Positions 18,604 to 23,927 of a stretch of DNA of 30,218 bases are shown here, one piece after another. The position numbers and the translations under genes are program-made. This DNA is from a virus. Below the pieces are notes generated by a model. It ran no database searches. It was not told where the DNA came from and saw only the letters and a program-made list of their open reading frames with translations. The DNA lies in IMG/VR virus record IMGVR_UViG_3300017917_000567, positions 1 through 30,218 of that record; one strand, written 5' to 3'. Within the stretch, counting starts at the first letter, position 1; the number at the start of each line of letters is the position of its first letter.

Positions 18604-19872
18604 ATGTCAACTATAGATATATCAAAAGTAAAATTAAAGTGGAAGGGTAAGTGGAGAGCACGACAACAATATTTTAAAAATGATATTGTTCAGTGGATGG
18701 GAAAATCTTTTAAATGTATAAAAGATACTCCTGTTGAATTTGTTATTAGATCTAGTTCTAAAGTATCTACTGGTAACTTTTCTTTTGATCCTCCTCATCT
18801 TGTAAGAAGAAGTTATAGACCAGAAAATCCTAAGTATTGGTCTTTATTTGTTAGAGGAACTGACAGAATTAAATTATGGAATTGGTTGAAACAATATTTT
18901 CCAGGAGAAATGGTACGAGTTAAAGGTGAAGTATTTTTATGTACTAATACAACTAGATATAAAAATACATATGTAACTGAATCGAATTATTGGACTAAAA
19001 TTTATCAATCTCCTAAAACTGCAAAATATAGACACGAGTCAATAATGTTTTGTAACCGTGCTCCATTAGGTTGGAAATATAATATGGGAGAAAATCAGTG
19101 GGGTGGTGGTGATATGAGTTATAACACTACTGTTATTAACACTGATGGTACTTCAATGTGTATCGGTGGATCAGATTCTACAAGCAAAAATGGTAGAGGC
19201 GCAGATGGTGTTGGTGGTTCAACTCAAATGGGAAAACATCAATATACAAATTTTACTTTCGTTGATTGGTTAACATCAACTGATCAATCTTCTTGGCAAA
19301 CACAAGACAACACTGGAAAATTAACTACTCCAGATGGTAAATGTCCTAAAGTAATTCAAATTGCTACAGGTTCTGATACAACTCTTTGGTTAATGAATAA
19401 TGGTGAAGTATATTCAGCAGGATTTAATACTCAAGGTCAATTAGGTATTTCTAATACAACAAATTACGCTTATACAAATAGAGTTACAGCAACTGATACT
19501 ACTGATTGGAATGGAAACAATATACCAAATACTTTTAACCAAACAAAAATTGTAAAAGTTGGTATTACAAATCAAATGCAAACATCAAGTACTTCTTCTT
19601 GTTTTGCATTAGGAGAAGATGGTTCTGTTTGGGTATGGGGATATAATAACGTAGGTCAATTAGGATTAGGTAACCCTGGAGTAAACAACTCAGCTGATGC
19701 AAGTGGTTTTTATACATCAAATCAAACAAGACCTAGAAGAATATGCCAAGATTTATTTGATGGAAAATTTATTGTTGATATGTGGTGTAATGGTTCTGGT
19801 TCGGAAGATTTTGGGCACTTGATGAAGAAGGTAAATTATGGGCTTGGGGTTATAACCAATATGGAGAATTAG
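18604..19872 (+). CDS. RCC1-repeat fibre/adhesin 3, 5' part (frameshifted)
   Basis: A 422-residue frame with the shared N-terminal module (IDISKVKLKWKGKWRARQQY) and a second similar module near residues 93-130, but without the beta-sandwich of adhesins 1 and 2. RCC1 blades begin near residue 180: 'GTSMCIGGSDSTSKNGRGADG', 'GEVYSAGFNTQGQLGIS', 'GSVWVWGYNNVGQLGLG'. At bases 19809-19812 the run is four T's. After it the frame reads 20 residues of non-RCC1 sequence and stops at 19870-19872. The -1 frame from 19812 carries on the RCC1 pattern without a gap. The true protein is expected to be about 722 residues. Either the T-run lost one base, or a frameshift joins the parts. Confidence 0.7.
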   Translation: MSTIDISKVKLKWKGKWRARQQYFKNDIVQWMGKSFKCIKDTPVEFVIRSSSKVSTGNFSFDPPHLVRRSYRPENPKYWSLFVRGTDRIKLWNWLKQYFPGEMVRVKGEVFLCTNTTRYKNTYVTESNYWTKIYQSPKTAKYRHESIMFCNRAPLGWKYNMGENQWGGGDMSYNTTVINTDGTSMCIGGSDSTSKNGRGADGVGGSTQMGKHQYTNFTFVDWLTSTDQSSWQTQDNTGKLTTPDGKCPKVIQIATGSDTTLWLMNNGEVYSAGFNTQGQLGISNTTNYAYTNRVTATDTTDWNGNNIPNTFNQTKIVKVGITNQMQTSSTSSCFALGEDGSVWVWGYNNVGQLGLGNPGVNNSADASGFYTSNQTRPRRICQDLFDGKFIVDMWCNGSGSEDFGHLMKKVNYGLGVITNMEN

Positions 19873-20771
19873 GAGTTGGACATAGAGATGGTACTTACTA
19901 TGTTTACCATCCAATGCCAGTTACAGTAGATTTTAAACAGTATGGTGGCGTTAAGAAATTTATGACAACTTGTAATGACGCAGGTGTTACAACGACTTAT
20001 GTTTTAGATCACGAAGGTTGGTTATGGGCTTGTGGTTATACAACAGCTGGTTCAGTTCCTGGAGCTGTACCAACAGGAGGTACATCTACATTACAATGGG
20101 GTTCATTTAGAAGATTAGATTTTTATTTGAATGGTGATATTGAAGAATTTTGGGTGGGTGGTGATGAATCACAATGGTGTGTTATAAGACAAAAAAATTC
20201 AGATTTAGTTTGGCAAACAAACGGTAGATATTCTAACGGATCAGATGGTGCTGGTGTTCAACAATCTTCTTATTGGTATACTTCTGGTGGACAAGCAAAC
20301 TCATTTAACGTTATAGATGGTCCTAGAGGTTGCAGATTTGCTGCAGGTCATTCTGTAAGTAGAGTAGATGGTTCTCAACAATGGGCGGATCCTATTATAT
20401 TTGATGACGATGGTGTTATGTGGGCCGGCGGAAGAAACTATTATGGTTTTTCATCATTAGGATTTGATGGAGCAAACGATACTGAATGGGCAGATGGAGG
20501 TCCTCATTCTCCAGAACAAGATATGAATGATAATGAATATAACTTTAATAAAAAGCGTAAACTTTTTGTTCCATCAGGTTTATCAATCGTAGACATTCAC
20601 GCATTTGGTTATGGTTCAGCTAATATGTTTTGCTGGAGAGATGAATCAGGTAAAATATTATTTGCTGGTTATGATGGTTCTACTGCTCAAGCGTTTCAAT
20701 ATAGCAGATGGCCTGTACCAGCATCATCTACTGCACCTAGATACTTTATGCACAGTGGACCAAACGATTAA
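19812..20771 (+). CDS. RCC1-repeat fibre/adhesin 3, 3' part
   Basis: Open in the -1 frame from 19812. It reads WALDEEGKLWAWGYNQYGEL, which continues the blade in line with adhesin 1 (MALDNANRLYAWGYNGYGQL). The first ATG in this frame is at 19914 and would give 285 residues, but it lies inside a blade, so a separate start is unlikely. More blades follow: 'GWLWACGYTTAGS', 'GVMWAGGRNYYGFSSLGFD', 'GKILFAGYDGSTAQ'. It ends 26 bases before the heme oxygenase start. It is the C-terminal half of the same fibre. Confidence 0.7.
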   Translation, partial: WALDEEGKLWAWGYNQYGELGVGHRDGTYYVYHPMPVTVDFKQYGGVKKFMTTCNDAGVTTTYVLDHEGWLWACGYTTAGSVPGAVPTGGTSTLQWGSFRRLDFYLNGDIEEFWVGGDESQWCVIRQKNSDLVWQTNGRYSNGSDGAGVQQSSYWYTSGGQANSFNVIDGPRGCRFAAGHSVSRVDGSQQWADPIIFDDDGVMWAGGRNYYGFSSLGFDGANDTEWADGGPHSPEQDMNDNEYNFNKKRKLFVPSGLSIVDIHAFGYGSANMFCWRDESGKILFAGYDGSTAQAFQYSRWPVPASSTAPRYFMHSGPND

Positions 20772-20797: not shown

Positions 20798-21376
20798 ATG
20801 GATATAAAACAGTTAACAGCTGAACATCATAAACTAGCAGAAAATCAAGATTTTGTAAAAATCCTTATGTCAGGAAATATTAATCCTGAATTGTATGGTA
20901 TTTACATTTACAATCTTTTACAATGTTATTCTGTATTAGAAAAATATTGTTTTGAAAATGGTTTGTTTAGACAAATTCCAAATATTGAAAGATCAGAAAG
21001 ACTTGATTATGATTACCGAAAACTTTGGCCTAATACTGATACTCCTCCTCGTATAACAGATAGTGTGTTACGTTATATCTATCATTTAGATAGTATTAAA
21101 GACGAACCAGAAAAATTATTTGCTCACGTGTATGTAAGGCATATGGGTGATTTGTATGGTGGTCAAATGATAAAGAAAAAAACACCTGGACCAAATTCAT
21201 ATTTGGTTTTTATAAAAGCTGAACAGTTAAAAAAAACAATAAGAGAACTAATTAATAATTATGTTTTAGCTTATCAAATTAATGTTGTAGCTGAAGCCAA
21301 ATTATGTTTTGATTATGCTACAGAACTATTTAAGGAGATGAATGATTTGGGAAAATCTTATACAGTGCAAAAATAA
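20798..21376 (+). CDS. ho: heme oxygenase (biliverdin-producing)
   Basis: A 192-residue heme oxygenase, which opens heme to biliverdin IX-alpha with release of Fe2+ and CO, using electrons from ferredoxin. H11 in AEHHKLAEN matches the proximal heme ligand of the family (as in 'EVHTQAEN' of animal HO-1). YVRHMGDLYGGQMI (with G117-D118 and G121-G122) is the distal-helix signature. It is shorter than typical cyanobacterial enzymes (about 240), mainly at the C-terminus. The last 35 bases overlap the bilin reductase, so the two act in sequence. No strong Shine-Dalgarno or TATAAATA box is seen before it. The family call is firm. Confidence 0.9.
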   Translation: MDIKQLTAEHHKLAENQDFVKILMSGNINPELYGIYIYNLLQCYSVLEKYCFENGLFRQIPNIERSERLDYDYRKLWPNTDTPPRITDSVLRYIYHLDSIKDEPEKLFAHVYVRHMGDLYGGQMIKKKTPGPNSYLVFIKAEQLKKTIRELINNYVLAYQINVVAEAKLCFDYATELFKEMNDLGKSYTVQK

Positions 21377-22025
21377 CATTATAGACATATTAGATATAAA
21401 TTGTAAAGAATACTTTGAAGAAGGTATGACCCGATTTAATAAAGAAGGTTGGGTTAATCGTACTTGGAAAAATGATAATGTAAGACGAGCACACGTTGAT
21501 GTGGTTGATGCCAGAGAAACTAAGGGACTTTATATGATGCACGTTTGTTTATTTCCTGGCCTTACAAATGGCGGACCCATTTATGGATTTGATGTAATTG
21601 CAGGTAAAAATAAAGTAACAGGTGCATTCCACGATTTTTCACCATTACTTAAAAAAGAACACCCATTAACGAATTGGTTTATCAATGAAACAAAATGGTA
21701 TAAACCGAGTAAAGAGAGAGAGTTACCAGATTGGGCAAAGGCCATCTTTAGTGGTGGTATGATTGCCGCTGGTAATATACAAACAGAAGAAGAATTGTTC
21801 CAAGTCACAACAATGGCCGAAAGTAATTTACATAATTACTTAGAAAAAATTGGCGATTTTAAAAATGACTCAAAACAAGAAGATGTTGTAAAGGCACAGA
21901 ATTACTACTGTGAATATCAACAAAAAAATCCACATACACCTAAAGTTATGTTGTCTTTAGGTTTAAATGAAGAAGATGTTATGGTGTTTAATAAACACCA
22001 TCTTTTTCCAAAGATAAATAATTAA
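21342..22025 (+). CDS. pcyX: ferredoxin-dependent bilin reductase, PcyA/PcyX-like
   Basis: A 227-residue member of the bilin reductase family (PcyA, PebS, PcyX), which reduce biliverdin to phycobilins with electrons from ferredoxin. It follows PcyA along its length: RRAHVDV, LYMMHVCLFPG, PIYGFDVIAG, FHDFSP, ELPDWAKAIFS, TEEELF, YYCEYQQKNPHT. By my alignment to Synechocystis PcyA, D84 equals catalytic D105, H67 equals H88, and D53 takes the place of E76. Loss of E76, plus the HO partner and a likely non-cyanobacterial phage, points to the PcyX type, which has been described from oceanic phages and makes phycoerythrobilin. The symbol and product are inferred. It overlaps HO by 35 bases and the porin follows 1 base after its stop. 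Confidence 0.85.
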   Translation: MIWENLIQCKNNIIDILDINCKEYFEEGMTRFNKEGWVNRTWKNDNVRRAHVDVVDARETKGLYMMHVCLFPGLTNGGPIYGFDVIAGKNKVTGAFHDFSPLLKKEHPLTNWFINETKWYKPSKERELPDWAKAIFSGGMIAAGNIQTEEELFQVTTMAESNLHNYLEKIGDFKNDSKQEDVVKAQNYYCEYQQKNPHTPKVMLSLGLNEEDVMVFNKHHLFPKINN

Positions 22026-22026
22026 T

Positions 22027-23088
22027 ATGAAATATATTATTATTTTTTTGATGTTTTTATCATCAGTTGTAAAGGCAGATGAAAAAAAAATATCTGAATT
22101 AGAAAAAAGAATATCACAATTAGAGTCAAACAAACTATCAATACCTAAAGGCTTATTCATCACAGGCGAAGTAGAAGGTTATTATGATGACCGTACTTAC
22201 GACAGTGGTTGGGATTTAAGAGCTGAATTACAAATAGGCATTACACATAAGTTTAATAATTCTTATGTTAATTGGACTGGTGCTTCAATGTTATATGATA
22301 CATATTATTCACTTGATACTTCTTTAAATAATACAATACAAGAAAAACAAATGGGATTTGGTAATGATTATTACAGATTATATCTTGGTGAAACGGATGC
22401 ACAACGATTAGGATTTGCTAAGACACCTAAAGTAGGTGCACCATTAATTATTACACAAACAAATTCAAGGATAGATCATAGAGAGAAAACAGTTCTTGCG
22501 ATTGGTGGTTTTAATTGGGACGAACAATTTGATTTTGATTCATATAGATTAAGACAAGATTTGCCAGTAGGTTTAGTTGTAGGTTGGGATAATGAAAGAG
22601 ATGCTTTATATACAGGTGTAACTGTAGGACTTTTTGGATATGCTGATTTGTCTTATATGCAAATTAAAAATCCAAAAAGTTCAACAAGTGTTTCTAGTTT
22701 TAATGAACGAACACAACAAGGTTGGTCATTAGGCGGTACTTTATATCGTTGGAATATTCCTTTGATTTGGGGTGCAGAAGTTTGGGACGATAAAGATACA
22801 GGCTTTGCTGATAAAAACAGATATGATTACGGTTTATTATACAGTTTTAATGAACGCATTTATGGTACAGTTCACAGAACAGAAAATGATGATCTAGGAT
22901 TTACAGGTAACTATTGGGGTCTTGTTTACAATATACATACTGAAGATGATAAACATAAAAGACCTGATAAAAGAGCTGGTTTAGAATTTGGCTTGTACTA
23001 CCACGATAAAGAACAAAGATCAGTATATACAGGCGTATATAAAGACTATAACCCACAGTTATTAGCAACAGTAAGATATAAGTTCTAA
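22027..23088 (+). CDS. outer-membrane porin
   Basis: A 353-residue beta-barrel. Residues 1-17 form a classical signal peptide (MKYIIIFLMFLSSVVKA, cleavage after A17). A short coiled coil follows (KKISELEKRISQLES), as in many porins and OprB-type channels. Alternating amphipathic strands fill the rest (e.g. LRAELQIGITHKF; GLVVGWDNERDALYTGVTVG; LFGYADLSYMQI). The last strand ends LLATVRYKF, with the C-terminal Phe that the BAM complex recognises. It starts 1 base after the bilin reductase stop. It would insert in the host outer membrane. Substrate is unknown; an Asp/Glu/Tyr-rich barrel is consistent with nutrient uptake. It is not an obvious virion protein. Confidence 0.8.
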   Translation: MKYIIIFLMFLSSVVKADEKKISELEKRISQLESNKLSIPKGLFITGEVEGYYDDRTYDSGWDLRAELQIGITHKFNNSYVNWTGASMLYDTYYSLDTSLNNTIQEKQMGFGNDYYRLYLGETDAQRLGFAKTPKVGAPLIITQTNSRIDHREKTVLAIGGFNWDEQFDFDSYRLRQDLPVGLVVGWDNERDALYTGVTVGLFGYADLSYMQIKNPKSSTSVSSFNERTQQGWSLGGTLYRWNIPLIWGAEVWDDKDTGFADKNRYDYGLLYSFNERIYGTVHRTENDDLGFTGNYWGLVYNIHTEDDKHKRPDKRAGLEFGLYYHDKEQRSVYTGVYKDYNPQLLATVRYKF

Positions 23089-23097
23089 TTAAATTTA

Positions 23098-23105
23098 TAT
23101 AAATA
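23098..23105 (+). promoter_or_regulatory. candidate T4-type late promoter for gene 13
   Basis: An exact TATAAATAG-type box in the 26-base gap between the porin and gene 13, 9 bases before the ATG at 23115. The close spacing means a very short leader, but the sequence and location fit. Confidence 0.65.
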
Positions 23106-23114
23106 GTAGAGATT

Positions 23115-23927
23115 ATGGCTAATCCATCTACTAGAGAAACACTTAAACAATACGCTCTTAGAGCATTAGGTAAACCAGTAATAGAAATTAACGTTGATGA
23201 TGACCAGCTAGAAGATAGACTGGACGAAGCGTTACAATTTTATGCTCAATACCATTATGACGGTATTCGTAGAACGTATTTAAAATATCAAGTTACAGAA
23301 GCTGATAAAGCTAGATTACAAGCATCTTTACCAAATACAGAAACAGCAACAAAAAATTCTGTAAGTTCTACTTGGTATGAAGCAAACAATTTTTTAGTAG
23401 TACCGGAAACTGTAATCGCTGTTACAAATATATTTCCATTTTCAGATAAATCTAGTATGAATATGTTTGACGTAAGATATCAATTACGTTTAAATGACCT
23501 TTACGATTTTGCTTCAACATCAATTATTAACTATGATATGGTGTTAAGACATTTAGATTTTTTAGATCAAATTTTAGTAGGTATGAAACCTATTAGATTT
23601 CAACAACACGATAATAGATTATATATTGATATGGATTGGGTTAATGATTTACAAGTTGGAGAATTTTTAGTTATTGACTGTTATCGTAAATTAGATCCAA
23701 CTACATACACAGACGTATTCAATGATCAATGGTTAAAAAGATATGTTACGTCATTATTTAAAAAACAATGGGGTGCCAATTTAAGTAAGTTTGATGGAGT
23801 TACAATGATTGGTGGCGTTAAGTTGAATGGAGAAAAAATTTATACTGATGCTCAAACAGATATTGAAAAATTAGAAAAAGAAATAAGAGATAGTTTTGAA
23901 ATAGCACCAGCATTTTTAGTAGGTTAA
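23115..23927 (+). CDS. 13: neck protein gp13
   Basis: A 270-residue homologue of T4 gp13 (309 in T4), a head-completion/neck protein that joins the portal vertex to the tail with gp14. The N-terminus, RETLKQYALRALGKPVIEIN and VDDDQLEDRLDEALQFYAQYH, is the conserved opening of this family in marine myoviruses. The pattern ends with IRDSFEIAPAFLVG. It has its own candidate late promoter and is followed 4 bases later by gene 14. Gene order confirms it. Confidence 0.85.
   Translation: MANPSTRETLKQYALRALGKPVIEINVDDDQLEDRLDEALQFYAQYHYDGIRRTYLKYQVTEADKARLQASLPNTETATKNSVSSTWYEANNFLVVPETVIAVTNIFPFSDKSSMNMFDVRYQLRLNDLYDFASTSIINYDMVLRHLDFLDQILVGMKPIRFQQHDNRLYIDMDWVNDLQVGEFLVIDCYRKLDPTTYTDVFNDQWLKRYVTSLFKKQWGANLSKFDGVTMIGGVKLNGEKIYTDAQTDIEKLEKEIRDSFEIAPAFLVG

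Follow-up and report, generated by a model that had tools for sequence, protein, structure and literature searches.

A predicted phage porin as an optional partner of heme oxygenase and bilin reductase genes in T4-like phages

Why would a phage carry a gene for a predicted outer-membrane pore immediately behind genes for the breakdown of heme? Such an arrangement is found in the 30,218-base virus record analyzed here (the window), which comes from a presumably aquatic T4-like myophage and includes genes for tail sheath, terminase (TerL) and neck. Heme oxygenase (HO) together with bilin reductase in phages of non-photosynthetic hosts has been called enigmatic, and iron supply has already been proposed for the HO of these phages, both in PMC11480375.

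The genes of the locus lie on the plus strand. The heme oxygenase gene (hemO, 20798..21376, PF01126, E 9e-19) overlaps by 35 nt the gene for a PcyX-like ferredoxin-dependent bilin reductase (21342..22025, PF05996, E 6.8e-18), whose product shares 68% identity with its counterpart in Pelagibacter phage Mosig. Given its kinship to Mosig, the window phage may infect a SAR11-like host. The reductase stop codon occupies 22023-22025, and after a single base (22026) an ATG opens the intact reading frame of the porin (22027..23088, 353 aa, no internal stops), exactly where the preliminary description had placed it. This TAA-T-ATG junction is retained in most close relatives. Directly 3' of the porin are TATAAATA, a T4-type late promoter motif belonging to the neck gene (23098..23105), and the gene for the neck protein, a head-tail adaptor that forms the right edge of the cassette slot (23115..23927, phrog_211, E 3.9e-44). 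No valaS was found among the ORFs of this 30,218-base fragment or in close related records. A terminator-like hairpin at 21981-22001 was set aside, as it lies within coding sequence and is only partly retained in relatives. On the far side of hemO, two ORFs with RCC1 repeats (422 and 285 aa) span 18604-20771; since one relative (L051) has a single ORF of 722 aa, this gene is split in the window, by either a true break or an assembly error.

The 353-residue product contains the signal peptide, coiled coil and C-terminal Phe that had been noticed in it (the terminus reads ...LLATVRYKF). The signal peptide covers residues 1 to about 17 (22027..22077; MKYIIIFLMFLSSVVKA followed by DEKK, the boundary falling between VVKA and DEKK), with A17 invariant in the family alignment, and both the signal peptide and a C-terminal aromatic residue are kept in all full-length relatives. 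A barrel had also been proposed, with a strand count as its check, and AlphaFold2 models from 20 and 36 alignment rows (pLDDT 71 and 77, respectively) both predict 16 strands (residues 43-352, 22153..23082), an N-terminal helix (residues 19-34 in the model secondary structure, 22081..22128) and, after strand 5, an extended loop (residues about 123-152, 22393..22482). This loop occupies the place of the general-porin constriction loop L3 and is mostly modeled at pLDDT <50. The best solved-structure matches found by Foldseek and VIA-align were OmpF/OmpC/OmpK36, OmpU and the Rhodobacter porins. Against OmpC, VIA gave a Z of 22.6 and 3.1 Å over 276 residues at 9% identity (9-10% across the top matches), and a Z of about 22 well exceeds the chance level quoted for the tool. 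Together, these predictions support a porin-fold barrel as the gene product. In 34 of 36 relatives the N-terminal helix carries an R-h-x-x-h-E motif of the kind seen in trimeric coiled coils, and the motif is absent from the ALAS-linked porin subfamily; it is a suggestive hint of a trimer, and the porin is probably trimeric. Acidic and basic residues balance each other in the predicted pore lining (10 and 11, respectively, a crude estimate from strand alternation made with no coordinates), so no specific ion or cargo can be read from the pore.

A scan of IMG/VR returned 49 loci with the window protein as query and 128 relatives with a profile, with relatives 46-95% identical among the matches listed. 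Porin genes had been described as rare in lytic phages; within this phage group that does not hold, as the 128 IMG/VR relatives show. Searching by sequence in Pfam, PHROGs, NCBIfam and the PDB recovered no kin, and tblastn against 50,697 phage records gave no match at E<=1 and hence no sequence kinship with porins of sequenced phages, as would be expected of an Lc/NmpC-type prophage porin. None of 20 relatives matched any of the Pfam porin families at E<=1, and one distant ALAS-linked relative reaches OMP_b-brl under its cut-off. Matches of phmmer to hemagglutinin in the PDB (E 0.2-0.5) were attributed to chance. Because there is no curated Pfam porin match, the protein is classed as a porin by its fold rather than assigned to any named Pfam porin family.

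Among about 780 proteobacterial genomes, the porin family occurred only in phage contigs binned into one genome. The bacterial matches comprise three loci of a single Rhodobacteraceae bin (G054), which were considered as host porins and rejected: their neighbors are ThyA, NrdAB and ALAS and they reach 100% identity to IMG/VR contigs. With phage-type neighbors and such identity, these loci are phage contigs in a bacterial bin, and a cellular ancestor was thus not found among these genomes. Seen almost only in virus contigs, the family is apparently virus-specific. Two contigs of Rhodobacteraceae bacterium Water_Bin34 (L115 and L116; FZLS01000039.1 and FZLS01000005.1) are phage DNA, since their ALAS and porin have counterparts of up to 100% identity in IMG/VR contigs, and they may explain the one bacterial bin whose AlaS groups with phage AlaS in PMC11480375.

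The tie between the porin and the heme genes can be counted at the neck-gene site. A reductase gene lies directly 5' of every neck-site porin with enough upstream sequence (39/39; 7 further porins end at contig edges and fall outside this count), and other phages with HO and PcyX thus carry the porin in the same order, a comparison that the preliminary description had recommended. The slot in 103 different neck-site contigs is empty in 44, and contains HO-reductase in 28, HO-reductase-ALAS in 4 and HO-reductase-porin in 27. No porin occurs in the 44 reductase-free contigs, and all 27 porin-bearing contigs have the reductase (Fisher p 1e-8, uncorrected for kinship and, given the shared descent of the contigs, an overstatement); most of the negative set came from a search by neck protein, independent of porin and reductase. 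Given this shared descent, repeated gain or loss is the better argument, and the distribution of the porin on the neck-protein tree requires a minimum of 5 changes on starred branches and 8 on the best tree. An independent-pairs test on the neck-site set had too few informative pairs for significance.

The enzymes do not need the porin. Mosig, a cultured isolate, has the order HO-PcyX-neck with 35 bp where the porin would be, and about 30 other neck-site contigs retain HO-PcyX and have no porin. The proposal that heme breakdown, bilin formation and the porin make up one module holds as far as a genetic module is concerned, with the porin as an optional member. Mosig, with its empty porin site, provides a natural control. 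Several 2OG-Fe(II) oxygenase genes accompany the Mosig cassette, and Mosig_00059 (L117, 6357-7127), a ferrochelatase in GenBank, has a sequence closer in appearance to the 2OG-Fe(II) oxygenases and was for this reason left out of the evidence.

Among 110 neck genes, 87 have the consensus of T4 late promoters, TATAAATA, no more than 100 nt upstream, against 5/62 porins, 1/74 reductases and 3/78 heme oxygenases. Its six copies in the window (4698, 5290, 8607, 12750, 23098 and 27890) are all on the plus strand, and five of them precede a gene start by 9-25 nt, although the total count is not above chance. With no late promoter of its own and with TATAAATA on its 3' side, the porin groups with HO-PcyX rather than with the neck gene. 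This bears on the idea that the protein is a structural or envelope-weakening part of the virion or of lysis that lies in the structural cluster by chance. Its location among structural genes, just 5' of the neck gene, would suit such a role, but a signal peptide, a porin fold and the missing late promoter would not, and since the same site in Mosig has no porin and other phages carry the porin away from the neck gene, we consider this highly improbable.

Pairwise omega among close relatives is about 0.09-0.15 for the porin, similar to the reductase and neck genes, and values this low indicate that the gene is maintained. A decayed fragment, the outcome that would have counted against the original proposal, is not what we see: the ORF is intact and has relatives. 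It could still be argued that a host porin was acquired and kept without function, as its presence is optional and it has been gained or lost several times. An omega of about 0.1, recurrent gene partners and the failure to find the family in the cellular genomes tested speak against such a passenger, which we rank as the least likely of all explanations. The porin can also be exchanged on its own, as two opposite patterns indicate. In L024, porin identity is 87%, at saturation of synonymous sites, and reductase identity 74%, whereas in L133 a porin of 49% identity lies between a reductase of 84% and a neck protein of 79%.

Porins of this family are found on other phage backbones. The T4-like L024 and L068 carry HO, an MFS permease on the opposite strand, PcyX, the porin, an Fe-S assembly gene (PF01883) and an FTR1 iron permease (PF03239), the last two in only one porin-bearing lineage. 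The L024 phage has 46% GC, and further genes on its contig we take, from their translations, to be T4-type UvsX, UvsW, gp32, gp41 and primase. The order ALAS-(IscA)-DUF454-porin is present in 8 of 80 viral ALAS loci, with the ALAS identified by TIGR01821 (553 bits, over the cut-off) and no reductase nearby. On an NrdAB backbone the porin is locally alone, with HO/reductase about 7-9 kb off in several contigs, and one 116 kb contig (G030) has the porin and neither HO nor reductase. HO and reductase are both present in 27 of 48 porin records, and many of the remaining records are cut short. In the porin tree, all ALAS-linked porins fall into a single clade (100/100), and the neck-site and FTR1-linked porins are intermixed. 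With ALAS, FTR1 and Fe-S assembly genes nearby, the gene context leans toward tetrapyrrole/iron uptake.

Some neighbors of these genes were recorded in their own right. DUF454 (YbaN family, PF04304) lies near viral ALAS in 61 of 80 loci (L271-L350), often directly 3', a constant partner that the literature consulted does not name. A DUF401/CitMHS-like permease is directly 5' of HO-reductase, with or without the porin, in L103, L104, L105, L107, L156, L161, L163, L166, L167, L172 and L231, with a DUF454 gene between the two in L172. A tryptophan-halogenase family gene (PF04820) is common just 5' of HO (7154-8731 in L073, and at many HO loci).

We give about even odds (roughly 0.5) to the explanation that the phage porin is the optional component with which a tetrapyrrole/iron cassette acts at the outer membrane and increases uptake in the infected cell. 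The porin would be the optional last member of this cassette, which includes HO and bilin reductase, and ALAS in other phages. During infection it would be exported and presumably inserted in the host outer membrane, where it would raise the inward passage of small solutes for the tetrapyrrole/iron module. The cargo would most likely be iron, either unbound or in a small chelate, or else organic acids; the latter (2OG, succinate) are kept because DUF401/CitMHS-like and MFS permeases also occur. HO would meanwhile release iron from host heme, and PcyX would dispose of biliverdin. A more tentative extension is a phage-built uptake route, in which the porin in the outer membrane, FTR1, DUF401 or MFS permeases in the inner membrane, and enzymes for tetrapyrrole synthesis (ALAS) or opening (HO, bilin reductase) may be combined in different ways from lineage to lineage.

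The same pore might work outward and release biliverdin, phycoerythrobilin or heme breakdown products, a role in keeping with its direct coupling to the reductase and with the inner-membrane permease (DUF401 or MFS) that often adjoins HO. Bilins, however, are about 585 Da, near the usual size limit of general porins, and no family known to export bilins is present. Additionally, the ALAS-DUF454-porin context is without a nearby reductase, and phages without the porin also retain reductase genes, all of which makes bilin export very unlikely.

The strongest rival follows from the fact that porins are phage receptors and that the loops here are short. Porins of E. coli prophages are thought to replace the receptor porin and block adsorption of other phages. 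The phage porin could likewise supplant the host receptor porin, and linkage to heme genes would then reflect shared timing or mobility. Phages often use general porins as receptors, the best structural match in the PDB is OmpC bound to a phage fiber, and the predicted extracellular loops, short and in several cases conserved, would suit a poor receptor. The porin can be swapped alone, as in L133, and in E. coli the sRNA ipeX, a regulator of OmpC, derives from the transcript of a phage porin (review PMC12197685). Receptor replacement nevertheless gives no reason to expect a link with tetrapyrrole genes in particular, and such a link is found in several backbones; lasting exclusion also profits lytic phages less. 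We regard it as rather unlikely and prefer a porin that serves uptake for the tetrapyrrole/iron module.

A pore tied to heme genes, and in one lineage to iron and Fe-S genes, points to transport and iron rather than pigments. The virus probably changes host-cell uptake while breaking down heme, and an apparently virus-specific porin family extends the short list of phage host-envelope alterations. Phage porins (PMC8115048, PMC12197685) and the HO-PcyX-ALAS cassette (PMC11480375) are already known. We found no literature report joining the two, a search that left many subscription papers outside, so novelty is unproven.

The window protein resembles general 16-stranded porins (OmpF, OmpC, OmpK36, Rhodobacter) in its number of strands, its signal peptide and terminal Phe, the long loop that follows strand 5 and the superposition of the whole barrel, and differs in its 9-10% identity, lack of a Pfam porin family, N-terminal coiled-coil helix and phage origin. 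The E. coli prophage porin (Lc/NmpC type; phage porin/ipeX transcript, PMC12197685) is also a phage-encoded general porin, but belongs to a temperate coliphage, is linked to host-porin change and has no heme genes. In the viral GlnK-AmtB-OmpL set (PMC8115048), a phage-borne porin likewise stands beside a nutrient transporter, although that porin is OmpL-like, of Bacteroidetes origin according to its authors, and tied to ammonium rather than heme. As in the phage hemO-pcyX(-valaS) cassette of PMC11480375, HO and bilin reductase are adjacent at the gp13 neck-gene site of Mosig-like phages; the main text of that paper mentions no porin, and ALAS-DUF454-porin is another arrangement. In some hemO-pcyX(-valaS) phages valaS fills the same neck-site slot that is here filled by the porin.
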